Positions 6,666 through 26,535 are shown, counted from the first letter of the stretch. The stretch: 33,988 nt of DNA from Myxococcota bacterium (GCA_029941885.1 JAPYTP010000047.1:1-33988), one strand, 5' to 3'. Numbers and translations are program-made. Notes: a model not told the origin generated them from the letters alone.

Positions 6666-7586
6666 CTATCGCGGTGCGCCGGACGGGTCGAGAAACTTGA
6701 AGAACTCGTGATCCGGGGAGACTACGAGGGTCGTATTCTCGCCGAGCGTCTTGCGATACGCCTCCAGACTTCGAACGAAAGCGTAGAACTCGGGATCGTT
6801 GCTATAGGCCTTCGCGTAGATCCGGGCCGCTTCGGCATCGCCTTCACCGCGAGTGACTTCGGCCTCGGCCCGCGCCACCGCCACTTCCTCCCGGGCCTGT
6901 CCCTCCGCCTTCGCCCGGATCTCCCTGGCTTCGCGTTCGCCGATCGCGCGCTTCTCCCGCGAAATCGCGCGCCGCTGCTCTCGCATCTGTTCGAACGTCG
7001 CGTTCTCGGTCGGGAGCGGAAGCTCTGTGCGATTGATCCGGACATCGATCACGCGAACCCCGTTTCCGGCCAGTTCCAAGGTCGCCCGTTCATGGAGATC
7101 GTCGAGCGCCTCCGCGCGGGCCAAAAGCTCGGCCATCGACAGAGTCCCCACGGCGTCGCCCACCAGCGCGCCAACCGTCCGCTGGATCAGGCTCGTCGCT
7201 TCGCGAGGGCCTCCCAGAAAGCTCCGCCGAAACTCGAGTGGAGATTCGATCTGCCAGAGCGCGTAGTAGTCGACGATCAGTCGTTCGTTCCCACCAATTT
7301 CAATTTCCGTCGCAGCGGCGTTGAGATATTGGATCTTCTTGTCGAAGACCAGGACCTCGTCGACGAATGGGAAGCGGATCAAGGGAATTCTGAGATAGGG
7401 AATCGGCTGCGTCTCGTAGAACGCCACGCCCGCCTCGGTCAACTCCGCGACGGGCTTGCCTAATCGAAGCACGAGTCGATATTCGTCGGCACGATTGATC
7501 ACGATCGGCCCGCGGTCGAATTGTGCTGCCCAGAGGGCTCCCACGACGACCGCGCCGAATACCACCAGAAGAAAGAAGAACCTCAT
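6666..7586 (-). CDS. hflC: HflC-like SPFH membrane protein, FtsH modulator
   Basis: A 306-residue protein with one N-terminal membrane helix (about 3-20) followed by an SPFH/Band 7 domain. The segment VFDKKIQYLNAAATEI and the later coiled-coil part rich in ARAEAE and RGEGDAEAARIYAKAY, then DPEFYAF, are HflC hallmarks. HflC and HflK form a large periplasmic complex around the FtsH protease and limit its attack on membrane proteins. The ATG overlaps the hflK stop by 4 bp (ATGA), so translation is probably coupled. The order hflK-hflC is the usual one. Confidence 0.93.
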   Translation of the reverse strand: MRFFFLLVVFGAVVVGALWAAQFDRGPIVINRADEYRLVLRLGKPVAELTEAGVAFYETQPIPYLRIPLIRFPFVDEVLVFDKKIQYLNAAATEIEIGGNERLIVDYYALWQIESPLEFRRSFLGGPREATSLIQRTVGALVGDAVGTLSMAELLARAEALDDLHERATLELAGNGVRVIDVRINRTELPLPTENATFEQMREQRRAISREKRAIGEREAREIRAKAEGQAREEVAVARAEAEVTRGEGDAEAARIYAKAYSNDPEFYAFVRSLEAYRKTLGENTTLVVSPDHEFFKFLDPSGAPR

Positions 7587-8623
7587 CGTCCCGCCCCCAA
7601 AGGCGGCACCTGATTCCCAAGCGGGAGCAGTGGCAGCATGTTCACGGTATTCGGTTCGACCACCATTTTCGCTACCCCAGGTAGGATCTGCTCCATCGTC
7701 TCGAGGTACAGGCGTCGCCGTGTCACCTCCGGCGCCGCCTGGTACTCGACCAGCAAGGCCTCGAATCGGGTCGCCTCGCCTCGAGCCTCGATGACCTTCG
7801 CGCGCCTGTAGGCCTCCGCTTGTTCGTGCATCTCGGCGGCCTCGGACCGGGCTCGCTGCAGTATCTCCTTGGCGTCACCCTCGGCTTGCAGGGACGATCG
7901 CTTCTCGTCCTGGCCCGCACTGACGACATCTGCGAACGCCTCGCGGACGGCATCGGGCGCCTGCGGCCTCTCGAGGTTGATGCGCCTGACTTCGAAGGCT
8001 GCCTCGTGGCCCATCTCCGTCACGTAGCTCTTCAGCATCGCCGCGAGCAAAGAACGGGCTTCTTTCTCGATATCGCTTCGATCCTGGGAGAGCACCGCGT
8101 CGATGGACCGCTTGCCGATCACGTTCCGCATCGCCGCCTCCGTCGCGTCGTGCAGCACCGCCCCCGGATCGGCCATCGAGAATCGATACGCGTAGGCGTC
8201 CCCGACCTTATACTGCAGTTCGTAGGCGACATTCACGATGTTGCTATCCGCGGTCTGGATCGCGTCGCGTTTGATCCGATCGGCGATCTCGCTTTCTTCC
8301 GCATCCGAAGGCTTTCCCGGCGTCGAATTCGTTGGCCTCGAGCCGAAGGACTCGGTGCGAAGACGGCTTGTGTTGACGACTTCCCGAGACTCGATCGGCG
8401 ACGGCAGGTGGAATGAAAGTCCTTCGACATCGCGAATGCGATCGAACGCGCCGAAGCGCAGGATCACGGCGGATTCACCGGGGCTGAGCATGAAAACCCC
8501 GCTTGAACCCCACGCCGCGAGGACCACTAGTGAGATGAGAAGAATCAACGTGTTCACGATCCTACGCGTCACGCCACGGCCCGCTTTGCCTGCAGCGTCT
8601 TGCTTCTCATTCTTCGTCGCCAA
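7583..8623 (-). CDS. hflK: HflK-like SPFH membrane protein, FtsH modulator
   Basis: A 346-residue partner of HflC. A short Lys/Gly-rich cytoplasmic head (1-20) precedes a membrane helix (about 22-40) and the SPFH domain (about 43-260), which begins VFMLSPGESAVILRFGAF. The DPGAVLHDATEAAMRNVIG segment and the Ala/Glu-rich helix through QAEAYRRAKVIEARGEA are typical of HflK. The start codon is TTG 8621-8623, placed directly after the slipin stop (TAG-TTG), with GAGGG 7 nt upstream. It overlaps hflC by 4 bp. The cluster slipin-hflK-hflC puts three SPFH paralogues in a row. Confidence 0.92.
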   Translation of the reverse strand: MATKNEKQDAAGKAGRGVTRRIVNTLILLISLVVLAAWGSSGVFMLSPGESAVILRFGAFDRIRDVEGLSFHLPSPIESREVVNTSRLRTESFGSRPTNSTPGKPSDAEESEIADRIKRDAIQTADSNIVNVAYELQYKVGDAYAYRFSMADPGAVLHDATEAAMRNVIGKRSIDAVLSQDRSDIEKEARSLLAAMLKSYVTEMGHEAAFEVRRINLERPQAPDAVREAFADVVSAGQDEKRSSLQAEGDAKEILQRARSEAAEMHEQAEAYRRAKVIEARGEATRFEALLVEYQAAPEVTRRRLYLETMEQILPGVAKMVVEPNTVNMLPLLPLGNQVPPLGAGR

Positions 8624-9439
8624 CTATCCGCCCTCACCTTCTTTCTGCTCGGCCTGTCCGTCGCCACTCGTCTCCACCTTCTTTCCTGCCTCGATGACCT
8701 GATCGAAGAAGGGGCGAATGAGATCCATGGGGACCGGGAAGAGCGTGGTCGAGTTGTTCCCGCCGCCCGCGATCTCGGCGAGCGTCTGGAGATAGCGAAG
8801 CTGGAGCCCCGACGGCTCACTGGAGAGCGTGCGTGCCGCATCCGCAAGTCGCTGCGACGCCTGCAACTCGCCTTCGGCCAGAGTCACCTTGGCACGCTTG
8901 TCGCGTTCGGCCTCGGCCTGCTTCGCCATCACGCGCTGCATCTCCGGAGGAAGATCGATCTGCTTCAACTCGACAGCTCGAACCTTGACTCCCCAGGGCT
9001 CCGTCTGTTGATCGATGATCTCCTGGAGTTGTTGATTGATCTGCTCCCGATCGGCCAGAAGCTGATCGAGTTCCGCCTGACCGCAGACGCTGCGCAGCGT
9101 GGTCTGGGCCAATTGCGAGGTTCCATAGAGGTAGTTCTCGACCTGAATGACCGCTTTTTCGGGATGCAGCACCCGGAAATACAGGACCGCGTTTACCTTG
9201 ACCGACACGTTGTCGAGGGTGATGACGTCCTGGGCGGGAACGTCCATCACGATCTCACGAAGGCCGATCCGGACCATTCGATCGACGCCGGGGATGATCC
9301 AGCGAAGACCCGCTTCCCGGATCCCCACATAACGGCCGAACCGGAATACGACACCCCGCTCGTATTCGGGCAGGATTCGCACGCCCAGCATCAACAGGAC
9401 GAACGCAAAGACGATGACGATGAGAATACCTAACCCCAA
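8624..9439 (-). CDS. Slipin (stomatin-like SPFH protein) paired with NfeD
   Basis: A 271-residue protein: membrane segment 2-20, then a stomatin-type SPFH domain (about 22-200) with [19 protein letters not shown] (21-39) and [18 protein letters not shown] (63-80), an Ala/Glu-rich coil (170-200) and a charged tail. Bacterial slipins sit in membrane microdomains and are normally encoded next to nfeD, as here, 82 bp downstream of it; archaeal NfeD proteases cut the C-terminus of their partner stomatin. I choose TTG 9437-9439 as the start, with AGGAGG 6 nt upstream. The open frame extends 54 residues further, but that part overlaps nfeD in another frame and is unlike the family. Confidence 0.9.
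8631..8635 (-). promoter_or_regulatory. Shine-Dalgarno for hflK inside the slipin gene end
   Basis: GAGGG on the minus strand, 7 nt before TTG 8623 and within the last codons of the upstream gene. This suggests coupled translation. Confidence 0.5.
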
Positions 9440-9445
9440 TTTTCC

Positions 9446-9451
9446 CCTCCT
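9446..9451 (-). promoter_or_regulatory. Consensus Shine-Dalgarno deciding the slipin TTG start
   Basis: AGGAGG on the minus strand, 6 nt before TTG 9439. It is among the strongest ribosome-binding sites in the window and fixes the start after the nfeD stop. Confidence 0.75.
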
Positions 9452-9521
9452 CTTGTCGGAACCGCACGCGGCTACGACTTCCCTCACCCCAATTAATGAA
9501 CCAAACGACCGTCTTGCCGGA

Positions 9522-10979
9522 CTATGCGCCGCCGGTTGCCTTTCGCACGTGGAGCGTGAGCCCCTTGATCGACATGATTTCGACCGGATCGCCGACGGCA
9601 ATGGATTCGCCGGCCGTACAATTCCAATATTCGCCCCGCACGAAGACCTTACCCTTGGAGCGCGTCGGATCGCCGGTCGTCTGCGGATCGATCGTCGACT
9701 CGCAGCGTCCGACCAGTCCGATCATCTCGTCGACCCCGGCGGTCTGTTGCGCAAAGAGTGTTCGGCCGAGACTGTAAGCGATCACCGCACCGAATAGCGA
9801 CAAAGAAACGGTCAACGGGAAGAGGACCTGCCAGAAATCCACGGTCAGATCAGATACCTCCGGGCGGTCGAAGACCATCGTACCGCCGATCAAAAAGCAG
9901 GTGATCCCCGCCGCGAAGAGCAACCCAAACGAGGCCACGAACAACTCGGCGATCAGCAGGCCGACGCCGAGTAACAGAAAGAGAGCCCCTATCCAGGAGA
10001 AGGGTAGGATCTGGAGCGCGAATCCCAAGAGGATCATCGCCGCGACCCCGATCGCTCCGGGCACGATCAGACCGGGACTCTGGAACTCCATGTAGAGCCC
10101 GAGGGCACCGATCGCGAAGAGGATGGTTGCGACATTGGGGTCCGACAGAAAATTGAAGATCGCCTGGAGAAGCGTCTTTTCGATGACCACCACCTGAGCC
10201 CCGGACACCGACATCGCGAGTTCGTCGCCGTCGACGTCGACGACTCGACCTTCCACCGCCTCGAGCAGTTCCTCCCGGCTGTCCACGACCAGGTCGATCA
10301 CATTGAGTTCGAGCGCTTCCTCGGCGGTCACCGCGACCGAGTTGCGAACCGCATCCTGCGCCCAATCGACATTCCGGTTGCGCTGTTTGGCGATCGACTC
10401 GACATAGGCGGCAAGAAAATTTTCGATCTTCTGCCCCATGACGTCTTGCCCCGCCTGAGGCTCCCCGTCAGCTCCCTGCCCCGCAGGCTGCGGCGGGGAT
10501 CCGCCGCCGAACATACTCACGGGATGAGCCGCGCCGATACTCGTTCCCGGCATCATCGCAGCCACATTGGCCGCCAGGGTGATGAACGTTCCCGCCGAAG
10601 TCGCGGTCGCACCTCGCGGCGTGACGAACACGATCGTCGGAACGGCCGAATTGAGCATCGCCTGGATGATGTCCTGGGTCGCCGAGACGAGCCCGCCCGG
10701 TGTGTCGAGCTCGATCAGGATGGCCGAGGCCTTCGCCACTTCGGCCGCCTCGATCGCCCCGATCAGATAGTCGGCGCTGGCGGGGTTGATCGAGCCATCG
10801 ATCGTGACGACGTACAGGTCACCGGGTCCGACGGCGGTCGCCGTCCACGCGGGCATCATGGCGACCACGCAGCCAATCAACAAGAGCGGCAGACGGAGAA
10901 CCCTGAGGATGCCATCGACAATGGAGGCAGCGGGTGCAACGCCGTCCACCGCGTGCAAGTCGCTTCGTGCCCTCGTCAT
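9522..10979 (-). CDS. nfeD: NfeD-family membrane serine protease (long form)
   Basis: A 485-residue long-form NfeD (NfeD1b type). A signal or anchor segment (about 28-50) is followed by a ClpP-like serine protease domain (about 54-250) with [10 protein letters not shown] (91-100), the nucleophile in ATSAGTFI (Ser128) and the likely general base Lys184 in [15 protein letters not shown]. Next come several membrane helices (about 275-400) and a C-terminal OB-fold (about 425-485). A Pro/Gly/Gln-rich insertion (158-178) lies between the catalytic residues. Its partner is probably the slipin encoded downstream. The ATG overlaps the coaBC stop (ATGA), so the two are probably translated together. Confidence 0.92.
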
Positions 10980-14649: not shown

Positions 14650-15339
14650 ATGGATCGGATCTGGCTGGCCCTCCTGTTGGCCTGTGCGCTGATCGGCGCC
14701 GCCCTCCTGGACGAGGACGCCCCCGATCCTCTGCGAGGCGTGAGTCGCGCCGAGGTCGAACTGCCGTCGGCTTCGATCGAACGTCCGGCGGACCTCCGAT
14801 CCACCACCGCGCGCCGCGGCGAATCCGCGACGGACGAGATGGAGTCCGCGGTCGTCGCGCAGATTCTCGGGCGCTTTGCGATCCGACATACAGCGCTCCC
14901 GGAACGTGAACGGATCGCCCTCGCCCGCGCGATCGTTCGCGAGGCCCAGAGCCATGGACTCGCACCGGATCTGGTCATGGCCGTCATCGAGGTCGAGAGC
15001 GCGGGCTACCACCTGGCGCAGTCTCACGTCGGAGCGCTCGGACTCATGCAGCTGCTGCCTGCGACAGGCAAGGAACTCGCGGGCAAACTCGGGATCGAAT
15101 GGAAGGGGCCGGACACCCTGTTCGATCCGATCATCAACGTCCGACTCGGGACCGCCTACCTACGCCAACTCGCCGACCGCTACGACGGTGATGTCAATAT
15201 CGCCCTGGCCGCGTACAACTGGGGTCCTGGGCGAATCGATCGTCGCCTGCGAAGAGGCGCGAGCGTCCCCTCCCGCTACATCGAACAGGTCCGGCAAGCC
15301 GCCGACCGCTACGCCATCGCAGCCCCTACGCGTTCCTGA
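14650..15339 (+). CDS. Lytic transglycosylase, SLT domain
   Basis: A 229-residue membrane-anchored or exported peptidoglycan-cleaving enzyme. An N-terminal hydrophobic segment (about 4-20) precedes a polar linker (21-80) and a Slt70-type catalytic domain (about 95-215). The catalytic Glu116 is in VIEVESAG, followed by GALGLMQLLPAT (128-139) and AAYNWGPGRID (187-197), the standard motifs. The product would be 1,6-anhydro-MurNAc fragments, which fits the nearby anmK, amgK-like and murU-like genes. It follows the small membrane protein by 1 bp and converges with the dacB-like gene. Confidence 0.9.
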   Translation: MDRIWLALLLACALIGAALLDEDAPDPLRGVSRAEVELPSASIERPADLRSTTARRGESATDEMESAVVAQILGRFAIRHTALPERERIALARAIVREAQSHGLAPDLVMAVIEVESAGYHLAQSHVGALGLMQLLPATGKELAGKLGIEWKGPDTLFDPIINVRLGTAYLRQLADRYDGDVNIALAAYNWGPGRIDRRLRRGASVPSRYIEQVRQAADRYAIAAPTRS

Positions 15340-15394: not shown

Positions 15395-16906
15395 TCAGTC
15401 AGCGTTCGCCGCCGCCACCGGGGTGGACTTGGATGTGGACTTGGGTCTCGGGGATCCGATCGGCGTGTCGAGCAAGGACTGGGCCACGCGATCCACCGCG
15501 TCGACAGCGGCGCCACTTCCGCCGCTGTGACCATTGACGAGGATCGAAAAGATCAGCGTCTCACCGTCGGCGCGATCCGCATATCCCGAGAGCGTCGTGA
15601 TCGAAGCATCGGAAAGCAGACCCGTCTTGGCCCGAATTCGCCCTTTGCCCCCCCGCAATCGCTTTTCGAGGGTGCCATCGAGTTCCGCAATCGGCAACGC
15701 GGCGACGAACTCCGCGCCCATGCGGAAAGACCTCAGGCCGATGGCGAGGGCGTCGACCAGCATTCGGGGCGTCAAGCGATTCTGGATCGAGAGGCCCGAC
15801 CCATCCACCAGTCGCGCCCGGTCCAAATCGACTCCGAGCCGTGCGAGCTGCCCGCGCAGTGCTCGAATTCCGCCGACCCACTCGCCTTGTCGACTCGGCT
15901 CGCCGTCGAGGGACGCGCCCTCCCAGGCGCCCAGATTCTTGACCAGGGCCTCGGCGATCGAGTTGTTGCTGTACTTCATGCAGAGTGACACCGCTTCCGC
16001 CACGCTCCGACCGGGGCGGTCCAGGATCAGCGTCAAGAGTTCTTCTGCACGGGGGGCGCGTCGCACCTCCCCGTCGAGGAAGATTCCGTTCGCGTCGAGT
16101 TGATAGGCGAGAAGCGAGCCCGCATACAGTCCGGGGTCGAGCACACTCCGAGGAAATCGATCGACCCCATCCCCGACGCGCACGACACCGTCTACCCGCA
16201 CGACTTCGTCCGCCGGTCCTTCGCTCTTCTGGCCCTGTGCCCGATCGACGGATAGCCTCGGGCGCGCCTTGCGCGAGGCGGTCGTGGCGCGGTTGTAAAT
16301 CCGCAGATAATCGACCGGCGGGTCGATATCGACGAGCGCGGGTTCCCCGACGGTAGAGCGGGGCCAGATCGAAACGAAGAAGGATCCGTAGTTCGCCGTC
16401 AATGCGCCGATCGGCGCGTGATAGGCGCGCGCGGAGATGCTTCCCCAGCTCGGATGCCAGCCCGGCGTCTCGAAACGGGTGTCATCGACGCGAAGGTCCC
16501 CGCGAATGCCGCGCAGCCCCTCACGACGCAGGTCCGCCGCAAGCCGCCACCAGTCCTCGGAGTTCATCGCCGGGTCACCGCCGCCCTCGACGATCAGCTC
16601 ATCGACGATGCCGTCGGCGTCGGGCTTCGACGACGCCCAGATACGGGTCGAGAAACGGTGGCTGGGGCCGAATCGATCCAGGCTCGCGAGTGCGGTCAGG
16701 ATCTTCTGATTTGAGGCGGGAATCATCAGACGATCGGCCCCGCGCGAATAAACCGTCGAGCCGTCCGATGCCCGGACGACGAGAATCCCGACGCTGGCCT
16801 TTGCGAGCGGAGCCCGCGCCACCAGGCTGTCCAGACGCGCCTCGAGAGTCGTGCCCTGGCTCGATGCATCCGTCGCCAGACTGGCGAGGATCAGCGTGAC
16901 CACCAT
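15395..16906 (-). CDS. dacB: D-alanyl-D-alanine carboxypeptidase / endopeptidase, PBP4 type
   Basis: A 503-residue penicillin-binding protein of the S13 (PBP4/DacB) family, acting in the periplasm on peptide stems and crosslinks. All three active-site motifs are visible: SxxK as SNQK (65-68, in MIPASNQK), SxN as SNN (313-315, in MKYSNNSIAE) and KTG (427-429, in IRAKTGLL). The long insert between SxxK and SxN typical of this class is present (about 90-300). A short hydrophobic N-terminus (1-17) should be the signal peptide. I use the ATG at 16906. The frame stays open to 17482, but that part overlaps the start of the divergent spmAB gene and looks non-coding. The C-terminus is Ser/Lys/Pro-rich. 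Confidence 0.9.
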   Translation of the reverse strand: MVVTLILASLATDASSQGTTLEARLDSLVARAPLAKASVGILVVRASDGSTVYSRGADRLMIPASNQKILTALASLDRFGPSHRFSTRIWASSKPDADGIVDELIVEGGGDPAMNSEDWWRLAADLRREGLRGIRGDLRVDDTRFETPGWHPSWGSISARAYHAPIGALTANYGSFFVSIWPRSTVGEPALVDIDPPVDYLRIYNRATTASRKARPRLSVDRAQGQKSEGPADEVVRVDGVVRVGDGVDRFPRSVLDPGLYAGSLLAYQLDANGIFLDGEVRRAPRAEELLTLILDRPGRSVAEAVSLCMKYSNNSIAEALVKNLGAWEGASLDGEPSRQGEWVGGIRALRGQLARLGVDLDRARLVDGSGLSIQNRLTPRMLVDALAIGLRSFRMGAEFVAALPIAELDGTLEKRLRGGKGRIRAKTGLLSDASITTLSGYADRADGETLIFSILVNGHSGGSGAAVDAVDRVAQSLLDTPIGSPRPKSTSKSTPVAAANAD

Positions 16907-17252
16907 TGACCCGATGGCGCTTGGTCCACGCGGCCCCCGTCGCCGGGGCGACGTCGATCCGGCGACAGGCGATTTCCTCGCCGCGTTTCGGCCTAGCTGG
17001 GGATCCCGCAAGATCGCTGCCTCCACGACGCCAATCCGGCCTCGATACCCATCGACTCGCCCGATCCCGATGACCTCGGCTCGACCGTCGGCCTTCCTTC
17101 GTCGTCGGGAATCTGGACGTGTCGGACTTGTCGGGGGGAGCGCCGCTGCGCTTGACGCCGACGAGGTTATCGGGGAGCCTGCCCTGGAGCAATCGCGGTC
17201 GACCAGGGGGGATCGGACGCGGTTCTCAAAACCGGCGGGATCGGGGGGTCCC
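16907..17252. other. Divergent promoter region, dacB / spmAB
   Basis: A stretch of 346 bp between divergent genes. Several open frames cross it but none resembles a protein family. It should hold both promoters; I found no convincing -35/-10 pair or palindrome. Confidence 0.4.
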
Positions 17253-18578
17253 ATGCTCAACGCGATCTGGCTGATCCTCGTAGGCGGCGCCCTGTGTGTC
17301 GCGGCGCTGGGCGGACCGGAACATCTCAAGGACGTGATCGACTCGATCTTCGCCAGCGCGAAGTCAGCGGTCCAACTGGTCATCGGCCTGGTCGGCGTCA
17401 TGGTCTTTTTCCTCGGCCTGATGCGAATCGCTTTCGATGCCGGTCTGCGGGACGTCATCGCTCGCAAGCTGACCCCGATCACGCGCCGACTGTTCCCAGA
17501 AGTTCCCGCTGATCATCCGGCGATGGGCGCCATGATCATGAACATGGCCTCGAACGTGTTGGGCATGGGCAACGCGGCGACACCCTTCGGCCTGAAGGCG
17601 ATGAGTGAACTCGCCAAGCTGAACAATCATTCGGGTTCGGCCTCGAACGCGATGGTTCTCTTTCTCGCGATCAATGCCTCCGCGATCACACTACTACCGC
17701 CACTGGGAACAGTCGGTGTTCGCGCCGCAGCCAATTCCACCGATCCCTGGGCGATCTGGATGCCCACGCTCTTTGCGACCGCCTGCTCGACCGCCGCCGC
17801 CGTGCTGGCCTACACCCTGCTCGGCCGACTCTCGATCTTCCGACACCGCCCCGAGACTCCGGGAGATGCGACGGCCCAGAGCCGGGAGTTCCCGGAGGTA
17901 ACCCCCGTGGAATCGGGACTCACCGCCCCGCCCGAAGCGCCGCTGGTGGGAAAGCTACGAACCCTGGTCGTAGTCGCCGTTGCGCTCGGGATGTGCCTGA
18001 TGATCGGAAACAACTTTCTGAACGCCTACCAGAGCGACGGACTGGTCATGGCCATTCGAGCGATTCTTCAGGCCTGGGCGCTGCCGATCCTACTGGTCGC
18101 TGTCCTGCTCTACGGGTTTTCGAAGCGAGTCCGGGTTTACGATTCGATGGTGGCGGGTGGCCGCGACGCGCTCGACGTCGCCTATATGATCGTTCCGTAC
18201 CTGGTCGTGATCCTGGTCGCGGTCGCCATGTTCCGCGCGTCCGGAGCACTGGAAGTCGTAATCGGATTCCTCGATCCCTGGACCAGCCGCATCGGCGTGC
18301 CCGCGGAGGTCCTGCCGATGGCTTTGATCCGGCCCCTCTCGGGCAGTGGCGCCCTCGGCGTGATGAGTGAGATCTTCAATGCCCACGGTCCGGACTCCTT
18401 CATCGGGCTACTGACCAGCACGCTGATGGGATCGACCGAGACGACCTTCTATATTCTCGCGGTCTATCTCGGTGCCGCCGGGGTGGTCGACGGACGCCAT
18501 GCGCTCTTCGCTTGCCTGGTGGGCGATGTGACCGGCTTTTTTGCTGCGGTGGCCGCCTGCCACTTCTTCTTCGGCTAG
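17253..18578 (+). CDS. spmAB: Fused SpmA-SpmB nucleoside-recognition (Gate) domain membrane protein
   Basis: A 441-residue membrane protein that joins two genes usually separate in Bacillus: an SpmA-like half (about 1-195; MNMASNVLGMGNAATPFGLKAM and FLAINASAITLLP regions) and an SpmB-like half (about 235-441; VAGGRDALDVAYMIVPYLV, RPLSGSGALGVM and STETTFYILAVY regions). Both carry Gate domains, found in membrane proteins. In Bacillus SpmA and SpmB are needed for spore core dehydration, but homologues are widespread in non-spore-formers, where the substrate is unknown. The ATG at 17253 has a G-run upstream. It starts the plus-strand series spmAB-amgK-murU-MBL, 14 bp before the kinase gene. Confidence 0.9.
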   Translation: MLNAIWLILVGGALCVAALGGPEHLKDVIDSIFASAKSAVQLVIGLVGVMVFFLGLMRIAFDAGLRDVIARKLTPITRRLFPEVPADHPAMGAMIMNMASNVLGMGNAATPFGLKAMSELAKLNNHSGSASNAMVLFLAINASAITLLPPLGTVGVRAAANSTDPWAIWMPTLFATACSTAAAVLAYTLLGRLSIFRHRPETPGDATAQSREFPEVTPVESGLTAPPEAPLVGKLRTLVVVAVALGMCLMIGNNFLNAYQSDGLVMAIRAILQAWALPILLVAVLLYGFSKRVRVYDSMVAGGRDALDVAYMIVPYLVVILVAVAMFRASGALEVVIGFLDPWTSRIGVPAEVLPMALIRPLSGSGALGVMSEIFNAHGPDSFIGLLTSTLMGSTETTFYILAVYLGAAGVVDGRHALFACLVGDVTGFFAAVAACHFFFG

Positions 18579-18592
18579 GCAGTCGTTTTCCC

Positions 18593-19672
18593 ATGGACCT
18601 CGTCGAGCAGGACCACACCTCCCTCGGTGAACTCTTGCGCTCACAACTCGGCTGGACGCCGATCCGAATCGAAGCGATGGCCGCGGGGATGGGAGCGCGG
18701 CGCTTTCATCGCATCTTTCTCGCCGGGGACGGCCCCGCCACGCTCGTCGCTCGAATCGAGGACGACCGCACGACCACGGCCCCGGCGGAGACCTCCCTCG
18801 TGCCTGCCGCGCCCGCCTGGCTCGAAGAGCCGGCCCTGGAACCGCTGCGCGGGTTTCTCGAAGACGCCGGTCTTCCGGTTCCCCGGAGTCATCTCCACTG
18901 GCCGCAGCAGGGGATCGACCTGCTCGAGGATGTCGGCACCACAACACTCGGCGACATCGCGGGGCCACACGGCGACGATCGCTATCGGGAAGCGTGTGAC
19001 CTCGTGCCTCGACTTCAGGGTCTCAAAGCCTCCCCCTCCTCGATTCCTGCCTTCGGTAGACACCTCGATCGGAGACTGCTCGATACGAAGGCCTGGAAAT
19101 GGCTCCACTGGACGATCCCCCTGCTGCTGGGACGTGTGGCGAGTTCCGAGGAGTGTGAACGGACCCATTGCCTCTTCGGATGCATCGCCGACCTCGTCGA
19201 AGCGGCCCCACAGCGACTCAGCCATCGCGACTTCAAGGCCGAAAATCTGCATCTGGCCCCGTCCCCGCGTGACTCACTCGTCATGATCGACGTTCAAGGG
19301 GCGTTTCTGGCGCCTCCGGAATACGATCTCGTCTGTCTGCTCTACGATCTCCAGGTCTGCCTCGAGGAGGCATCCGCACAAGCGGCCTTCGAATCGACCC
19401 GAACCAGGCTCCCGGACGCACCGGACCGAGCCGAAGCGCGACTTCGCTTCGACGCCCTGGCCGTCGCGAGACTCTGCAAAGACATCTCCCACATCGTGCA
19501 CGCGGGGCGCGTTCGCGGGGACCTCCGGCGATGGCACGAGATTTCACGTGGCCTCGAACTGTTACGGCGCGCAGCAGAGCGCCTGACACCCACTTTTCCG
19601 GAGGCCCAAACCCTCACTTCTGTGATTCAGGCACTTACCCCTGCGGCCCAATCGGCCGATAATGGAAACTGA
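18593..19672 (+). CDS. amgK: APH-family sugar kinase, AmgK-like (MurNAc/GlcNAc anomeric kinase)
   Basis: A 359-residue kinase of the aminoglycoside phosphotransferase fold. The catalytic loop is LSHRDFKAENLHL (209-221, with H211, D213 and N218), followed by the metal-binding segment MIDVQGAFLAPPEYDLVCLLYD (Asp233 onward), which resembles the ID-Q-A-GP-YDLVSLL pattern of AmgK. AmgK phosphorylates MurNAc (and GlcNAc) at C1. The gene directly downstream is a MurU-like nucleotidyltransferase, the same order as the amgK-murU pair of Pseudomonas, and anmK is nearby. An alternative is another small-molecule or choline kinase; the pairing makes AmgK more likely. The start is the ATG at 18593. Confidence 0.78.
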   Translation: MDLVEQDHTSLGELLRSQLGWTPIRIEAMAAGMGARRFHRIFLAGDGPATLVARIEDDRTTTAPAETSLVPAAPAWLEEPALEPLRGFLEDAGLPVPRSHLHWPQQGIDLLEDVGTTTLGDIAGPHGDDRYREACDLVPRLQGLKASPSSIPAFGRHLDRRLLDTKAWKWLHWTIPLLLGRVASSEECERTHCLFGCIADLVEAAPQRLSHRDFKAENLHLAPSPRDSLVMIDVQGAFLAPPEYDLVCLLYDLQVCLEEASAQAAFESTRTRLPDAPDRAEARLRFDALAVARLCKDISHIVHAGRVRGDLRRWHEISRGLELLRRAAERLTPTFPEAQTLTSVIQALTPAAQSADNGN

Positions 19673-19742
19673 GGGGCTGCATGCGGTCGAATTGGATCGG
19701 ACGATGCCAGGAGCGGACACGAGATCGACGGAGGGCGAAACC

Positions 19743-20741
19743 ATGCGCGCGATGATCCTCGCCGCCGGTCTCGGTACTCGCCTGCGCCCGCTCACGGACT
19801 ATCGTGCCAAGCCTGCGTTGCCGGTCCATGGCCGTCCGGTGATCAGCCTGCTGCTCGAACTCCTCGCTCGCCACGAGTTCGATCAGGTCCTGATCAACCT
19901 GCACCACCTTCCCGATACGATCCGAGCGGCGGTCGCAACCGACCATCCCGATGGATTGGCGATCAGCTGGTCCGAAGAGCCTCGCCCCCTCGGTACCGGC
20001 GGCGGCATCCGTCGCGCGGCAGAATTCCTGGCGGGCGAAAGCGACTGCCTCGTGATGGCGGGCGACATGCTGCTCGACATCGACCTCACCGACCTGCTGG
20101 CGCGACACCGTGCGAGCGGACGAGATGTGACACTGGTCTTGCGCGAAGATTCTCGGGGCGGCGACTTCGGTACGATCGGTCTGGATGCGAGGGGGCAATT
20201 GACGCGTGTCGGAAACCGTGAAATCACGAGACCGACCGACGGTGGGTCGACCGCCGACCGCGAAGAAAATCAGGGTCTCTTCACGGGTGTTCGAATCTTC
20301 TCACGGGCCGCCCTCACCGGCTGGCCCTCCATCGAGACCGACGCGACCGCCGAGCCCGCCTTCGAGGATCTCCGCGACTGGCTGGTACCCAGAATCGAGA
20401 CGGGGCAGTGTTCCGTCGGCGTCGAAGTCGTCGACGCCGCAACGACCGTCTGGGAACCCGTCGGAACACCGGGCGAGTACCTCGACGTGAACCTTTCCCC
20501 GCCGAGCCTGCCCTCGCTCGGTGGGGGGGCCCAAGCCTGGGGACGCGATGTCCTGCCGCCGCAAGCCGAAACGGGGAACATCATCGCGGGAAGCGCCGAC
20601 GTCCCGGCGGACGCGAGCCTCGAACAGTGCGTCGTCTGGGATCGGGAACACGTGCCCGCGGGCTTCCGAGGCCGTCACGGCGTCTATGCAGGAAATTCCT
20701 TTCACCCCTGTCGTGAATCCGCGAGCGGGAGCCCCGAGTGA
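19743..20741 (+). CDS. murU: MurU-like sugar-1-phosphate nucleotidyltransferase with C-terminal extension
   Basis: A 332-residue nucleotidyltransferase. It begins MRAMILAAGLGTRLRPLTDY with the GxGTRxRPLT signature and KPALPVHGRPVI (20-31), then EEPRPLGTGGGI and MAGDMLLDIDL with the metal-binding Asp. The likely reaction is MurNAc-1-phosphate plus UTP to UDP-MurNAc, following the AmgK-like kinase. The Pseudomonas enzyme is about 225 residues; this one has roughly 100 more at the C-terminus (about 235-332), resembling the tail seen in other NDP-sugar pyrophosphorylases. A mannose-1-phosphate guanylyltransferase remains possible. The ATG at 19743 has GGAGG 8 nt upstream; its stop overlaps the next start (GTGA). 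Confidence 0.75.
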   Translation: MRAMILAAGLGTRLRPLTDYRAKPALPVHGRPVISLLLELLARHEFDQVLINLHHLPDTIRAAVATDHPDGLAISWSEEPRPLGTGGGIRRAAEFLAGESDCLVMAGDMLLDIDLTDLLARHRASGRDVTLVLREDSRGGDFGTIGLDARGQLTRVGNREITRPTDGGSTADREENQGLFTGVRIFSRAALTGWPSIETDATAEPAFEDLRDWLVPRIETGQCSVGVEVVDAATTVWEPVGTPGEYLDVNLSPPSLPSLGGGAQAWGRDVLPPQAETGNIIAGSADVPADASLEQCVVWDREHVPAGFRGRHGVYAGNSFHPCRESASGSPE

Positions 20742-21475
20742 GCGAAGTCGTCTTCATCGGAACCAGCGACGCCTTCGGCGCCGGCGGTCGTCGTCAGTCC
20801 GCCATCTTTGCCCGGGGCGAGCGAGGCGGGATGCTCTTCGATTGTGGCGGCACGACGAACACCGGATTGGCGCAGCTCGAAATCGCGCGAGACGAGGTCG
20901 ACGTCATCCTGATCTCGCATTTTCGCGGAGATCATTTCGGCGGAGTTCCCGCGTTCCTGTACGCGTCGCTCTACACGGATGCCCGCACCCATCCGATCGA
21001 GATCGTGGGGCCTCCAGAGATTCAGGCCCGCGTGAACGCACTCGCCGCGGCAATGGGTCACCACCTCGACGACCGTGAGTGGACGTTTCCGATCCACTAC
21101 CGGGAGATCCATGCCGGTGAGCGTTTCTCCGCCGGTCCCGCCGAGATCGAAGCCTTCGCGACCCAACATCAGCCGGAAGCGAACCCCCACGGCTACCGCG
21201 TTCGACTCGGGCGAGAGCAGATCGCCTACTCCGGTGACACGGGATGGTTCGATGATCTGCCTCTTCAGATCGCGAAAAGCGACCTCTTCATCTGCGAGTG
21301 CACGCTCCACCACGCGGAACTCGACTTCCACCTGAGCCTGGAAGAATTGCGGGAACACCGCGACGACCTCGACTGCGGCCGCCTCATCTTGACGCATCTG
21401 GGAGAAGACATGACCCGGAAGCGCAGGCAGATCGAAATCGAGACCGCCGACGACGGCATGGCCGTCAAGCTCTAA
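20738..21475 (+). CDS. Metallo-beta-lactamase-fold hydrolase with altered HxHxDH motif
   Basis: A 245-residue MBL-fold protein related to the tRNase Z-like / ribonuclease Z superfamily. The metal motif reads SHFRGDHFGG (60-69): His61, Asp65 and His66 are present, but the second His is Arg63. The other expected ligands are visible: His144 (ATQHQPE), Asp167 (YSGDTGW) and His220 (LILTHLG). A HLSLEELREH stretch (198-207) resembles the conserved HLSPEE element. The start is GTG, overlapping the murU-like stop by 4 bp, so translation is probably coupled. The substrate is unknown; co-translation suggests a role in sugar-nucleotide or cell-wall recycling. Confidence 0.82.
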   Translation: MSEVVFIGTSDAFGAGGRRQSAIFARGERGGMLFDCGGTTNTGLAQLEIARDEVDVILISHFRGDHFGGVPAFLYASLYTDARTHPIEIVGPPEIQARVNALAAAMGHHLDDREWTFPIHYREIHAGERFSAGPAEIEAFATQHQPEANPHGYRVRLGREQIAYSGDTGWFDDLPLQIAKSDLFICECTLHHAELDFHLSLEELREHRDDLDCGRLILTHLGEDMTRKRRQIEIETADDGMAVKL

Positions 21476-21509
21476 CGACTCCATATCGCTCGTCGACCCC
21501 GCCCCTGGT

Positions 21510-22667
21510 TCAGCGCCACTCCGCCCCGTGGATGACGCCGAGCACGCGGCTTTCGTCCACTCCGGTGCACTGGGGCAACTGATTCGGAATCCCGAGGAGC
21601 GTATTCCTTCCCATCAGCGAAAACGCCATCGCCTCGGCCGCGTCGCCGGGAACACCACCCGCCTCCATCGGCGCAACGATCCCACCCGGAATCGCCCGGT
21701 CGAGGGATTCCATCACGAATCCGTTTCGCGCTCCCCCGCCACCCACGTAGATTCGCGCCGGCGACGTCCCGCTCACGGTCGCGGACATTCCGCTCCAAGC
21801 CGCCTCGATCGCGCGAACGCTGGCGGCAGTCAAGGTCGCCAGCAGATCGTCGACGCCGACCCCCTCCCGCTGCGCCCGATCGAGCCAGGTTCGCGCCTCG
21901 GCGATTCCGTAGTGCTCTCGTCCCGTCGACTTCGGAGGTGGCCGCTCGAGGTAGGGATCGTCGAGTAGCTCAGCCAGCCAGGGTTCGACGATCTTTCCGA
22001 TCCGGGCGCGGGCTCCATTTCGATCGAAACGTTCGATGCCCCCCGTCGCCAGTGTGATCACGCCATCGAGCAGCGAGTTCGCGGGGCCCACATCGAAGGC
22101 CATCACGCCCTCCGCCGCCCCACCTGCCGGGAGCCAGGTGAGGTTCGCAATTCCCCCGAGGTTGAGAACACCGCGCTCTTCGACATCGTCCGCAAAGACC
22201 GCGTGATGAAAGAACGGGGCCAGCGGCGCGCCCTCACCACCCATCGCGAGATCCCGACGCCGGAAATCGGCAATCACCGGCCGACCGAGTCGCTCCGCGA
22301 GTCGGGCCGGACAGCCAATCTGGAGGCTGCCACCGTGCTCCGGGTGGTGGGCGATCGTCTGCCCATGCGAAGCGAAACCATCGACGGCGCGAGCATCCTC
22401 GCCGGCCTCCTCGAGCAGTGCGAGGGCGGCATCCGCAAAGGCGTCCGCCAAGACGCGATCCAAGCGGACCTGTTCGGCCAGGATCCGATCGGAGGGGAGT
22501 TCGCCCGCGGCCAGACGGTGGATCTGTTCCTGGAGCAATTCCGGGTGGGGACACTCGAGAGAAGCGATCAGCTCGAAGGGCCGTGCCTCCGGCGTGTCCG
22601 GCCAATCGACCAACGCCGCATCGATTCCATCCGCCGAAGTGCCCGACATCAGTCCCACGACCCGCAT
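21510..22667 (-). CDS. anmK: Anhydro-N-acetylmuramic acid kinase AnmK
   Basis: A 385-residue sugar kinase that hydrolyses and phosphorylates 1,6-anhydro-MurNAc to MurNAc-6-phosphate during peptidoglycan recycling. It begins MRVVGLMSGTSADGIDAALVD, the family hallmark, and contains ASHGQTIAHHP, LQIGCPARLAERLGRPVIAD, GGEGAPLAPFFHH, LNLGGIANLTWLP and FDVGPANSLLD, in the family order. The ATG at 22667 gives the expected length; the frame stays open 94 residues upstream but that part is not family-like. It converges with the MBL gene (34 bp between stops). No murQ etherase gene is in the window. Confidence 0.95.
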   Translation of the reverse strand: MRVVGLMSGTSADGIDAALVDWPDTPEARPFELIASLECPHPELLQEQIHRLAAGELPSDRILAEQVRLDRVLADAFADAALALLEEAGEDARAVDGFASHGQTIAHHPEHGGSLQIGCPARLAERLGRPVIADFRRRDLAMGGEGAPLAPFFHHAVFADDVEERGVLNLGGIANLTWLPAGGAAEGVMAFDVGPANSLLDGVITLATGGIERFDRNGARARIGKIVEPWLAELLDDPYLERPPPKSTGREHYGIAEARTWLDRAQREGVGVDDLLATLTAASVRAIEAAWSGMSATVSGTSPARIYVGGGGARNGFVMESLDRAIPGGIVAPMEAGGVPGDAAEAMAFSLMGRNTLLGIPNQLPQCTGVDESRVLGVIHGAEWR

Positions 22668-22781: not shown

Positions 22782-22809
22782 TTGACAGGCAAGGGGAATC
22801 CGGGATACT
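22782..22809 (+). promoter_or_regulatory. Sigma-70-like promoter of the glycosyltransferase operon
   Basis: TTGACA (22782-22787) is a perfect -35; GATACT (22804-22809) follows after 16 bp and matches 4 of 6 positions of the -10. Transcription would start about 100 bp before the small membrane protein gene at 22916. Confidence 0.55.
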
Positions 22810-22915
22810 GCCGCGGCCGCGGCCCCCCGTCTCGGCCTCGGCATCCCCGCTTCTCGTAACCCCCCCGACTCGTCCGTCCCAAGGTTGCGACGAGATCCTA
22901 AATCCTGAGGGAACC

Positions 22916-23191
22916 ATGAACGAGACTTCCCGCGCCCAGGGCTGGGCAATCACGGCTGGAGCTGGCGTTGCCGCACTCCTCTTCGTGCTCGGAATCCTGA
23001 ACGGCAGCTATTGGGCAATCGCGATTCCCGTTGCGATCGTCACCCTCTTTGCGCTCGGACTCGTCGCATGGGTGGGCTACACCATCGCCACGATTCAAGT
23101 CGAAGCCGACGCGCCTCCGGAGATCCTCGCGACGGACGCGCCGAGTCCGTCGGCACCAGAAGAGACGCGTAGCGCCGAAGACGCGGCCTAG
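22916..23191 (+). CDS. Small membrane protein, two helices
   Basis: A 91-residue protein with two membrane segments (about 10-29 and 34-55) joined by a short NGSY turn, and an acidic, Ala/Pro/Glu-rich tail (60-91). I do not recognise a family. The ATG at 22916 has GAGGG upstream. It follows a sigma-70-like promoter and ends 9 bp before the first glycosyltransferase, so it is probably the first gene of that operon. Confidence 0.75.
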   Translation: MNETSRAQGWAITAGAGVAALLFVLGILNGSYWAIAIPVAIVTLFALGLVAWVGYTIATIQVEADAPPEILATDAPSPSAPEETRSAEDAA

Positions 23192-23200
23192 GTTCGAATC

Positions 23201-24460
23201 GTGCGCATCGCATTGCTCACCTATCGCGGCAACATGTTTTGCGGCGGCCAGGGAATCTACGCGGCCTATCTGGCGCGGGAGTGGAAACGCGCCGGCCACG
23301 ATGTCCACGTGTTTGCGGGTCCACCCCTTCCCGAACTCGAAGAGGGGATCCCGCTTCACGAGATCCCCAATAACAATGTCTTCGGCCAGACCACCCGCGA
23401 GGCCATCGACCCAGACGACCCCTTCTCGATCCTCAAGCCACTCTCTCTCTGGGAACTCGGGGTTTCGCGATTCGGCGTGTTCCCAGAGATGCAGACCTTC
23501 GGATTCCGATTGATGCGTCGCTGGCGGGAGATCCAGCAGCGCTACCGCTTCGACATCGTTTTCGACAATCAGTGTCTGTCCTGGGGCCTGCTCGGAATCC
23601 AATCGATGGGCGTGCCCGTTGTCTCGGTGATCCATCACCCCCTGCATATCGATCGCGAAGCGGATTTCACGATCGACCCCTCGCTCAAGAAACGCGTGGA
23701 GCGGACGCTCTATTTCCCGCTGATGATGCAGCAGACCGTCGCTCCTCGATTGGCGAAGATCGTGACGGTCTCGGAAGCTTCCCGGGGCGCGATCGAAAAG
23801 TATTTCAAGATCCCCGAGAAGGACGTCAGTGTCGTCTACAACGGCACGGATACGGAAATTTTCCACCCGATTCCCGAGGTGAAGAAGGAAGCGGATCTTC
23901 TCTTCGTCGGGAGGACCGAGGATCGGAAGAAGGGAATCGGGACGATGTTCGAGGCGCTCTCGATGCTTCCCGAAAACGTCACGCTCAAGATCGTCGACGG
24001 GCGGATTCCCGGACACGGTCTCGTGCCTCGGCTCAAGAAGCGATTCGGACTCGAGAATCGCGTCCAGATCGTGGATCGAATGTTGACGGTGCCGGAGCTC
24101 GTCGAGCAGTACTCGAGCGGCAAGGTCGCGCTAGTCCCCTCATTCTTCGAGGGGTTCGGATTTCCGGCGAGCGAGGCGATGGCCTGCGGCCTCCCCGTCA
24201 TCGCGAACGCCGCGGGGGCCCTGCCGGAAGTGGTCGGAAGTGACGGACACGCGGGCCTTCTCGTTCCCCAGCGCGACGCCCAGGCGATGGCCGACGCGAT
24301 GAGATCGATCCTTTGCGATCCCGACAAGACCGCCCGCATGGGCCACGCAGCCCGAAGGAGGGTCGAAAGACTCTTCCAGTGGGATCAGGCGGCCGCTCAG
24401 ATGGTCGACGTCTTCCAGGAGGTGATCCATGCTGCTCACCGTCGATCTCGAGCGGCTTGA
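23201..24460 (+). CDS. GT4-family glycosyltransferase (first of a paralogous pair)
   Basis: A 419-residue GT-B-fold glycosyltransferase. The N-terminus RIALLTYRGNMFCGGQGIY (2-20) carries the Gly-rich loop of GT4 enzymes. The sugar-nucleotide site is SFFEGFGFPASEAMACG (314-330) with Glu317 and Glu325 (E-x7-E). The acceptor domain includes VIHHPLHIDREADF (143-156). The start is GTG at 23201. The last 32 bp overlap the methyltransferase gene. The sequence is visibly similar to the glycosyltransferase at 25204, especially around GGQGIY, HDVHVF-GPP and HHPL-DR. Donor and acceptor are unknown; the context suggests cell-surface glycan or glycolipid synthesis. Confidence 0.9.
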   Translation: MRIALLTYRGNMFCGGQGIYAAYLAREWKRAGHDVHVFAGPPLPELEEGIPLHEIPNNNVFGQTTREAIDPDDPFSILKPLSLWELGVSRFGVFPEMQTFGFRLMRRWREIQQRYRFDIVFDNQCLSWGLLGIQSMGVPVVSVIHHPLHIDREADFTIDPSLKKRVERTLYFPLMMQQTVAPRLAKIVTVSEASRGAIEKYFKIPEKDVSVVYNGTDTEIFHPIPEVKKEADLLFVGRTEDRKKGIGTMFEALSMLPENVTLKIVDGRIPGHGLVPRLKKRFGLENRVQIVDRMLTVPELVEQYSSGKVALVPSFFEGFGFPASEAMACGLPVIANAAGALPEVVGSDGHAGLLVPQRDAQAMADAMRSILCDPDKTARMGHAARRRVERLFQWDQAAAQMVDVFQEVIHAAHRRSRAA

Positions 24461-25199
24461 TATCCAGCCGGGCCACCGGCTCCTGGACGCGGGTTGCGGA
24501 GAAGGCCGCCACTGCTTCGGTAGCCTGGCCCGCGGTGCGACGGTGGTCGGTCTCGATCTCGACCTCGACTCCATCCGCGAACCGTCCAGGAATCTTCGCA
24601 AGCGAGGCGATGAGAACGGGCGCATGGGCGCGATGCTGCAAGGCGATGCCTTCCATCTGCCCTTTGCCGACGCGAGCTTCGATCGAATCATCTGCAGCGA
24701 AGTCATGGAGCACGTCCATGACTACCGCGGCGCCATCCGCGAGCTCTTTCGTGTCTCCCGGCCCGGGGCAAAGGTCGCGATTACGATCCCAACGGCCACG
24801 AGCGAGCAGCTCTACCTGCGTCTGGGCGACGAGTATTTCGAGAGTCCTGGCGGACATATCCGTATCTTTCGCCCCCGTGAACTCGCCGAGGGAATGGCGG
24901 CCGCGGGCTTCGACGCCGTCGGTTGTGGATTCGCCCACGGTTTCCACACCCCCTACTGGGTCCTGCGCAGCGTCATGCATCTACCGGATGCCGATCAAAG
25001 CCGGCTCGTTCGCGCCTACCGGGAATTCCTGATCCGCGCGACCGCCTCGCCGTGGATGGACCGGCTCGAGGGGATCCTCAATTTCGTCTGTCCGAAGAGC
25101 ATCATCCTCTACGGGACGAAGCGCGCTACTGCGTGCGGCACATCGGACTCCTCGCAGAACGCGGCCCAATCCGCCGCAGCGCTCTCCGCCGCGGCCTGA
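24429..25199 (+). CDS. Class I SAM-dependent methyltransferase
   Basis: A 256-residue methyltransferase of the Methyltransf_11 type. The SAM motif LLDAGCGEGRH (18-28) is followed by an acidic residue in VVGLDLDLDS, then GDAFHLPFADASFDRIICSEVMEH, the usual motif II and III region. The C-terminal tail is Ala/Ser-rich. It starts inside the preceding glycosyltransferase (32-bp overlap) and ends 4 bp before the next, so the three should be translated together. The likely role is methylation of the sugar or lipid handled by the glycosyltransferases; the substrate is unknown. Confidence 0.88.
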   Translation: MLLTVDLERLDIQPGHRLLDAGCGEGRHCFGSLARGATVVGLDLDLDSIREPSRNLRKRGDENGRMGAMLQGDAFHLPFADASFDRIICSEVMEHVHDYRGAIRELFRVSRPGAKVAITIPTATSEQLYLRLGDEYFESPGGHIRIFRPRELAEGMAAAGFDAVGCGFAHGFHTPYWVLRSVMHLPDADQSRLVRAYREFLIRATASPWMDRLEGILNFVCPKSIILYGTKRATACGTSDSSQNAAQSAAALSAAA

Positions 25200-25203
25200 C
25201 ACC

Positions 25204-26535
25204 GTGACCGTGCTGTCGAAGCCCCGTCCAGACCGAAAGCTTCGAATCGCCTTCGTCGCCTATCGAGGCAACATGAACTCGGGCGGACAGGGGATCTACC
25301 TGTGGTTCCTTGCGCGCGAGCTGGCCCGTATGGGTCACGACGTTCACGTATTCGTCGGCCCCCCCTATCCCGACCCGATGCCCTTCGCCAGGGTCGAGAG
25401 GCTCCCGAATCAGCAGTTCTGGGCAAAGTGGGTGCTCGACCAGACGGATCAGATCATTCCTGAGCACAACCCGTTCCAGGTCCTTGGCCCACTGAACTTC
25501 TATGAACTGGCGGCGAGTCGGATCGGTTTTCTGCCGGAACCCTTCGCCTTCAGTGTGCGCGCCTTCCGCCAACTCGCCCGACACCTTCGCGCAGGAGAGA
25601 GATTCGACATCGTTCACGACGTGCAATGTCTCGGCTACGGCCTGCTGGGCATGCAGGCACTCGGTCTTCCGGTCGTAACGACCGTACATCATCCCCTGAC
25701 CGTGGATCGCCGCGCCTCGTTCATCCGGGACGAAACCCTCGAGGACGCGATCGGAACGATGAAGTTCTATCCGATCGGAATGCAGGCCTTCGTTGCACGT
25801 CGTCTCGATTGTGTCTTCACCTCGTCAGAGGCCAGCGCGCGACAGATCGTGCAGGATTTTGGCGTCCGCCCGGAACGGCTTCGAAACGTTCGCAACGGAC
25901 TCGACACCGAGTTCTTCTCACCGAGTGCCGATGTCGAAAGGAGCGAATCGAATCTGCTCTGCGTCGGACGCTCGACGGATCCGAACAAGGGAATCCGCAC
26001 TCTGATTCACGCACTTTCACGACTCCCGGCACATCTCACCCTCACGCTCGTCGATGACGACAGCCCCGATAATCAGGTTCGGCAGTGGGCGCGGGAAGTC
26101 GGCGTGCTCGACCGGCTGAAACTCACAGGGCGTGTCAGTTCAGACGAACTCGTGCGCCTCTATCGGGAGGCGGTCGCGGTGGTCGTGCCGTCGCGATACG
26201 AGGGCTTCGGGCTCCCCGCGGTGGAGGCGATGGCCTGCGGAGCGCCCGTCGTCGCGACCCGCGCAGGTGCGCTCATAGAGGTGATGCAGCTGACCGGCGG
26301 CGGCGTCCTCGCCGAGCGCGATGATGCAGATTCGATCGCAGCGGGCGTGCGAACGCTGCTCGAGAACCGTGAAGCTCGAGCCTTGATGGCGAAGCACGGC
26401 CGCGAGCGGGTCGTCGAGAGACTTTCCTGGCCCGGCGTCGCGGCGGCGATCGCGGAGATCTACGCGGAAATGGTCGAAGCGCGGAGGCGAGGTCGCCCCA
26501 CGACGATGATGACGTCCGCCAGCGTCGGGAATTGA
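25204..26535 (+). CDS. GT4-family glycosyltransferase (second of a paralogous pair)
   Basis: A 443-residue GT-B glycosyltransferase. It has RIAFVAYRGNMNSGGQGIY (14-32), VHDVQCLGYGLLGMQ (137-151), VHHPLTVDRRASF (161-173) and the donor site SRYEGFGLPAVEAMACG (330-346) with Glu333 and Glu341. The start is GTG at 25204, 4 bp after the methyltransferase. It is a paralogue of the gene at 23201: the same distinctive segments recur in the same order, which suggests local duplication and divergence. The last 76 bp overlap a convergent methyltransferase gene. Confidence 0.9.
   Translation: MTVLSKPRPDRKLRIAFVAYRGNMNSGGQGIYLWFLARELARMGHDVHVFVGPPYPDPMPFARVERLPNQQFWAKWVLDQTDQIIPEHNPFQVLGPLNFYELAASRIGFLPEPFAFSVRAFRQLARHLRAGERFDIVHDVQCLGYGLLGMQALGLPVVTTVHHPLTVDRRASFIRDETLEDAIGTMKFYPIGMQAFVARRLDCVFTSSEASARQIVQDFGVRPERLRNVRNGLDTEFFSPSADVERSESNLLCVGRSTDPNKGIRTLIHALSRLPAHLTLTLVDDDSPDNQVRQWAREVGVLDRLKLTGRVSSDELVRLYREAVAVVVPSRYEGFGLPAVEAMACGAPVVATRAGALIEVMQLTGGGVLAERDDADSIAAGVRTLLENREARALMAKHGRERVVERLSWPGVAAAIAEIYAEMVEARRRGRPTTMMTSASVGN

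Follow-up and report, generated by a model that had tools for sequence, protein, structure and literature searches.

A 33,988-nucleotide (nt) stretch of DNA from a Myxococcota bacterium (GCA_029941885.1, JAPYTP010000047.1:1-33988), hereafter the window, carries a compact gene cluster that probably serves the salvage of cell wall sugars. Three genes on one strand encode an AmgK-like sugar kinase of the APH fold, a MurU-like nucleotidyltransferase (NT), and a hydrolase of the metallo-β-lactamase (MBL) fold, and a gene for AnmK, the 1,6-anhydro-N-acetylmuramic acid (anhydro-MurNAc) kinase, converges on them from the other strand (Table 1). The first gene of the apparent operon encodes a Gate-domain membrane protein and is separated by 14 bp from the kinase ATG. 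The NT and MBL genes share their stop and start codons in a 4-bp overlap (GTGA), from which their co-translation is a reasonable prediction; an additional in-frame ATG for the NT open reading frame (ORF) lies at 19662. Promoter and terminator scans yielded nothing useful. A sequence-only reading of the window had already placed these four genes in this arrangement, named AnmK, and seen a lytic transglycosylase and a PBP4 nearby; the ORFs and profile matches bear it out on these points, and the overlap makes its view of the MBL gene as co-translated a reasonable one.

Table 1. Genes of the cluster and its murein-related neighbors in the window
Feature	Position	Strand	Basis
APH-fold sugar kinase, AmgK-like	18593-19672	+	ATG start at 18593, stop ends at 19672; HRDxxxxN and IDxQ intact
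NT, MurU/GMPP-like, with C-terminal extension and WEPVGT	19746-20741	+	MurU model, 99 bits
MBL-fold hydrolase, RNase Z/YhfI/Apyc1/PhnP clade, 245 aa	20738-21475	+	GTG start
AnmK, 1,6-anhydro-MurNAc kinase, convergent	21510-22667 (or 22676)	-	PF03702, 315 bits; NCBIfam AnmK, 351 bits
Gate-domain membrane protein (PF07670, two stretches), SpmA/SpmB- or YjiH-like	17265-18578	+	75 bits
PBP4-type D-Ala-D-Ala carboxypeptidase (S13)	15395-16999	-	TIGR00666, 207 bits (cut-off, 108)
Small SLT-domain lytic transglycosylase	14650-15339	+	PF01464, 97 bits

The block of Gate, kinase, NT, and MBL genes, with AnmK convergent to it, recurs across essentially the whole of this Myxococcota class (UBA9160-like metagenome-assembled genomes [MAGs]), mostly with start-stop overlaps. 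The NT was used to search 98 relatives, and in the 30 best loci, which were read, the gene order was the same wherever the stretch was long enough. Scanning an MBL alignment against named genomes gave 69 loci, nearly all of them in Deltaproteobacteria/Myxococcota-type MAGs (including UBA4427 and UBA9160); the remaining ones were a single Acidobacterium and four weak matches in Caldisericota/Coprothermobacterota. The MBL gene was accompanied by the NT gene at 59 of the 69 loci, by AnmK at 58, by the kinase gene at 55, and by the Gate gene at 53, a grouping far beyond chance. NT and MBL overlap by 4 or 8 bp in 56 of 68 distinct loci; at 53 of 63 the kinase gene runs into the NT gene by 1, 4, or 13 bp. 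Within the class, family f12 of a sister order keeps kinase, NT, MBL, and AnmK together at about 27 to 44% identity; the Gate gene was not seen at the f12 loci. AnmK exceeded its cut-off in 81 of the 98 relatives, all 81 within the class. Among the operon's enzymes the MBL protein is conserved best, with a within-genus identity of 81% (AnmK, 69%; NT, 61%; kinase, 59%). A tRNA-Ser call near the NT/MBL junction of one locus (L057) was discarded as a false match that sits inside the NT coding sequence. The cluster stands as a conserved unit beside murein genes; it is ancient and does not simply reproduce the MurNAc pathway of Pseudomonas.

AnmK can be assigned securely to its family from a full-length PF03702 match (profile positions 1 to 365 of 367, against a cut-off of 24 bits). 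The sequence-only reading had seen no murQ and had proposed a MurQ-less route of the Pseudomonas type. Indeed, murQ is absent from the window, but a full-length MurQ is encoded elsewhere in the same genome (G000:C114:4651-5448, 288 bits), and murQ is likewise present in 8 of 8 congeners and, across the class, in about 78 of the 91 genomes. Contamination was rejected as its source, because all 8 congeners carry the gene. In the congener G002, murQ is close to glmU and shares its contig with nagZ, at a distance of about 12 kb, and the proximity to glmU suggests that N-acetylglucosamine 6-phosphate (GlcNAc-6P) may be reused without deacetylation. The nine genus members (G000 and its 8 congeners) all have MurQ and AnmK, and a search for NagA found it in none of them; 25 of the 98 genomes reach the NagA cut-off. 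NagZ was found in 4 of the 9; it was not found in G000, where the murQ contig ends on the side on which G002 has nagZ. AmpG was not found in G000, and only weak matches (≤120 bits) exist within the genus. Matches to HAD phosphatases, sought for MupP, were weak in G000 (≤75 bits), and the Gph model used cannot separate MupP from other HAD phosphatases. Of the E. coli-type set of AnmK, MurQ, and NagA, the genus has the first two, and the third was not found in it. A MurQ route is present and is not of the textbook type, since NagA is missing in the genus and AmpG was not found in G000. The situation that the sequence-only reading had set against its own proposal, a complete MurQ route in a genome where these genes are not co-expressed, accordingly holds by half.

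Natural gene losses separate the parts of the cluster. Three genomes from two families (G036, G037, and G043) lack AnmK at its normal place, the MBL gene being followed directly by the next gene (L154 and L197 to L199); they also lack murQ and keep the kinase or NT gene and the MBL gene. Conversely, genus g29 (G048, G060, and G070) has lost the MBL gene from between NT and AnmK and has kept kinase, NT, and AnmK (L193 to L196). Among 91 genomes, the absences of AnmK and MurQ are associated (Fisher P = 0.0046) and those of NT and MurQ are not (P = 0.26), both values being uncorrected for phylogeny and assembly gaps. Because AnmK is lost together with murQ while kinase, NT, and MBL are retained, AnmK most likely feeds MurQ and not the kinase-NT-MBL operon, which would be independent of the AnmK product. 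In view of the presence of murQ, these losses, and an altered NT active site, the proposed MurQ-less pathway is not supported.

The kinase evidently belongs to the APH superfamily: it matches Pfam APH with 33.5 bits, its profile matches PDB 3csv over the full length with 120 bits, and R213, D214, N219, D234, and Q236 of the HRDxxxxN and DxQ motifs are invariant in the alignment. AmgK is its best NCBIfam model, but the two AmgK models score only 36 and 31.5 bits, far under their equivalog cut-offs of 500 and 550. Kinase homologues are widespread in Myxococcota; outside the class, 15 of the 20 loci read have no NT neighbor and 5 have one, and AnmK was absent from all seven non-class genomes tested.

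For the NT, the best model is MurU, with a match that spans residues 1 to 136 only and stays below the equivalog cut-off of 250 bits; a mannose-1-phosphate guanylyltransferase model (ManC-Rv) scores 94 bits. The likeness of the two proteins to AmgK and MurU is thus only distant, with the kinase motifs intact, and neither qualifies as a member of the named family. Enzymes of the UGP, GMPP, and AGPase types are the nearest matches to the predicted NT structure (pLDDT 87), and MurU is not among the top 50. The nucleotide-binding signature GxGxR...KP and the first Asp are kept (G8, G10, R12, K22, P23, and D107 are invariant). The second Asp, however, is replaced by Pro (WxDVGT to WxPVG) in every class NT sequence in which the motif is readable, and it is kept in 4 of 5 NT partners sampled outside the class. 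We take this second Asp to be a catalytic metal ligand in UGP- and GMPP-type enzymes, and Pseudomonas putida MurU presumably carries it as well. The f12 NTs have a hexapeptide-like C-terminal tail, apparently degenerate in the order to which the window belongs; in a structure search, the extension of the sister order resembled a left-handed beta-helix.

The MBL fold was predicted with a pLDDT of 85, and its best matches are 1zkp, YhfI, RNase Z, and Apyc1 (TM score about 0.8), followed by PhnP-family enzymes, so that its nearest structures, as modeled, are phosphodiesterases and not sugar phosphatases; sequence identity to the RNase Z-clade phosphodiesterases is about 15 to 25%. The family's metal ligands H61, D65, H66, H144, D167, and H220 are invariant, and H63 is nearly so. 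In the window copy H63 is replaced (HFHGDH to HFRGDH), codon 20924-20926 being CGC where L004 has CAC. The change is confined to this copy, all relatives with a readable motif having His, and it is either a real point mutation or a sequencing error. The protein scores 106 bits on the tRNase Z model TIGR02651 (cut-off, 293). No match exceeded the RNase Z cut-off in any of the 21 class genomes searched, in which the best matches were the MBL protein of the operon and another, longer MBL. A few class members have a second, non-operonic homologue of the MBL protein (L167 in G013, L202 in G070, and G025:C90). Homologues in other Myxococcota families and classes and in one Acidobacterium have no kinase, NT, or AnmK gene nearby and give no hint of function. 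The suggestion that the MBL protein is the MurNAc 6-phosphate (MurNAc-6P) phosphatase linking AnmK to the AmgK-like kinase has lost ground: it is a weak and unlikely candidate, because MurQ already consumes MurNAc-6P, the MBL gene persists where AnmK and MurQ are gone, g29 without it keeps AnmK, kinase, and NT, and its structural relatives are phosphodiesterases.

The PBP4 gene, a conserved neighbor, diverges from the Gate gene, and the SLT lytic transglycosylase gene is a frequent neighbor of the cluster. The Gate protein, in this divergent position, may have a role in murein or sugar transport. A Gate-domain protein gene beside a D-Ala-D-Ala carboxypeptidase gene recalls the dacB-spmA-spmB sporulation locus of Bacillus; here, by contrast, the genes are divergent, the carboxypeptidase is of the S13 family, and there is no sporulation context. 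Downstream of AnmK, two related GT4 glycosyltransferases surround a methyltransferase (22790-26535), preceded by a small conserved protein without a family match (22790-23191); the first GT4 and the methyltransferase are syntenic across the class, and their conservation exceeds that of the salvage genes. Farther away, at 6666-10979, an NfeD-like membrane protein is followed by three consecutive SPFH/Band-7 proteins.

With moderate confidence, we propose that this is a class-wide cell wall sugar locus in which two functionally separate arms, AnmK-MurQ and a divergent sugar-1-phosphate operon, lie side by side. The catabolic arm would consist of AnmK, making MurNAc-6P, and of MurQ, encoded elsewhere, converting it to GlcNAc-6P. 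In the other arm, the co-translated Gate-kinase-NT-MBL operon, the kinase would most likely act on a free amino sugar, MurNAc or GlcNAc, and phosphorylate it at C1; the NT, whose metal site is altered, would bind or slowly nucleotidylate the resulting sugar-1-phosphate; and the MBL protein would most likely be a phosphodiesterase or pyrophosphatase acting on the phosphorylated or nucleotide-linked product, not a MurNAc-6P phosphatase. The Gate protein is a possible sugar or muropeptide permease, because AmpG was not found in G000. Gene content, synteny, the presence of MurQ, its joint loss with AnmK, the Asp-to-Pro change, and the MBL clade are read from the DNA; what we infer is every substrate, the direction in which material flows, and what the MBL and Gate proteins do. 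The distribution of murQ, the joint loss of AnmK and murQ, the spacing of kinase, NT, and MBL genes, the intact kinase motifs, and the MBL clade support this reading, as does the kinase family outside the class, where AnmK is absent (7 of 7 genomes tested) and an NT neighbor is mostly lacking. Tannerella forsythia offers a precedent for MurQ beside a presumed salvage route of the AmgK/MurU type (PMC5790795).

Several observations weigh against two separate arms. Eight class genomes have AnmK without a detectable murQ and keep the NT gene (and the kinase gene where checked), most of them the MBL gene as well; both sampled members of g17 (G034 and G047) are among these eight. A Pseudomonas-type use is possible in such lineages, whose retention of NT and mostly of MBL it would require. 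In almost all genomes AnmK stays convergent beside the operon, a hint of some link, and the loss pattern consists of few events in draft MAGs.

The same adjacency, together with g17 and the other AnmK-bearing genomes that have the operon and no murQ, speaks for a complete anabolic route in which AnmK, the MBL protein or another phosphatase, the AmgK-like kinase, and the MurU-like NT would lead from anhydro-MurNAc to UDP-MurNAc in parallel to MurQ. MurU being the best NT model also fits, as does G034, whose Gph-like HAD match, a possible MupP, is the strongest among the 21 genomes searched. We nevertheless find this route rather doubtful: the NT lacks its second metal Asp class-wide, kinase, NT, and MBL persist without AnmK and MurQ, g29 has lost MBL and kept the rest, and the MBL protein is of a phosphodiesterase type.

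It is also unlikely that the sugar salvaged by kinase and NT is another one (mannose, heptose, or a glycan sugar), destined for a surface polysaccharide built by the downstream glycosyltransferases, with the murein neighbors being coincidental. The NT does score nearly as well on the mannose-1-phosphate guanylyltransferase model, its predicted structure points to UGP, GMPP, and AGPase, and the GT4/methyltransferase block lies downstream, with its first GT4 and its methyltransferase conserved there. However, murein genes (PBP4, SLT, and AnmK) flank the operon on both sides throughout the order, and the glycosyltransferase block begins beyond the convergent AnmK, as a separate unit.

Non-catalytic GMPPA is a regulatory partner of GMPPB (PMC11228364), and the NT could by analogy be a non-catalytic sugar-nucleotide sensor or regulatory partner that controls the kinase or the MBL protein. 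Such a role would suit a Pro fixed in the class where most outside partners keep Asp, an NT that evolves faster than the MBL protein, and a retained nucleotide-binding signature. It is improbable in view of the other active-site residues (GxGxR, Lys22, and Asp107), which are invariant, and of a metal ligand that could come from a different NT residue. A more far-reaching version, to which we give still less credence, is that the kinase-NT pair has been rebuilt as a third way of handling cell wall amino sugars: the NT would no longer carry out normal nucleotidyl transfer and would act with the MBL protein, one example being an NT that senses a sugar-1-phosphate or sugar nucleotide and is coupled to the MBL as phosphodiesterase or pyrophosphatase, and MurNAc would pass through AnmK and MurQ. 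That the MBL protein is the tRNase Z of the lineage, its operon place being incidental, is very unlikely: it is the best RNase Z match in most of the 21 class genomes, none over the cut-off, and the most conserved operon enzyme, but with its 245 aa it has too little length for the usual exosite arm, g29 and other genomes do not have it, and in many of the 21 the other, longer MBL comes close to it in score.

In Proteobacteria, chiefly the beta and gamma groups, recycling tends to go either through MurQ or through AmgK/MurU, the latter being linked to intrinsic fosfomycin resistance (PMC5371407). The window's genome resembles the Pseudomonas AnmK-MupP-AmgK-MurU system (PMC5371407) in that a MurU-like NT gene follows the gene for a sugar kinase of the APH type and AnmK is encoded in the genome. 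It differs in its MurQ, in the scores of kinase and NT, far under the cut-offs of the AmgK and MurU models, and in an NT that is extended at the C terminus and has no second Asp. A co-translated MBL protein and a Gate protein are added, and no MupP can be assigned with the Gph model. With the E. coli-type AnmK-MurQ-NagA route it shares AnmK and MurQ, which are lost together in two lineages; NagA was not found in the nine genus members, nor AmpG in G000. The MBL protein has the fold, length, and family metal-ligand set of RNase Z-clade phosphodiesterases (YhfI, Apyc1, the PhnP family, and 1zkp); unlike these, it is fixed in a kinase-NT operon, and one ligand His of the window copy is Arg. For Tannerella forsythia, MurQ and a presumed AmgK/MurU-type salvage route have been proposed to coexist (PMC5790795), so that coexistence alone is not new. 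The likeness is that both routes are in one organism; an MBL partner is not known to be reported there.

Three features are new: an MBL partner that is fixed throughout the class, an NT with Pro in place of Asp, and natural losses by which the two arms come apart. A deep uncultured class combines MurQ with an AmgK/MurU-like operon in which the active site of the NT is altered and the MBL partner is fixed, and annotation based on gene names would mispredict its pathway. The clean natural losses, of AnmK with MurQ in two lineages and of MBL in one, are useful for finding the role of each part.

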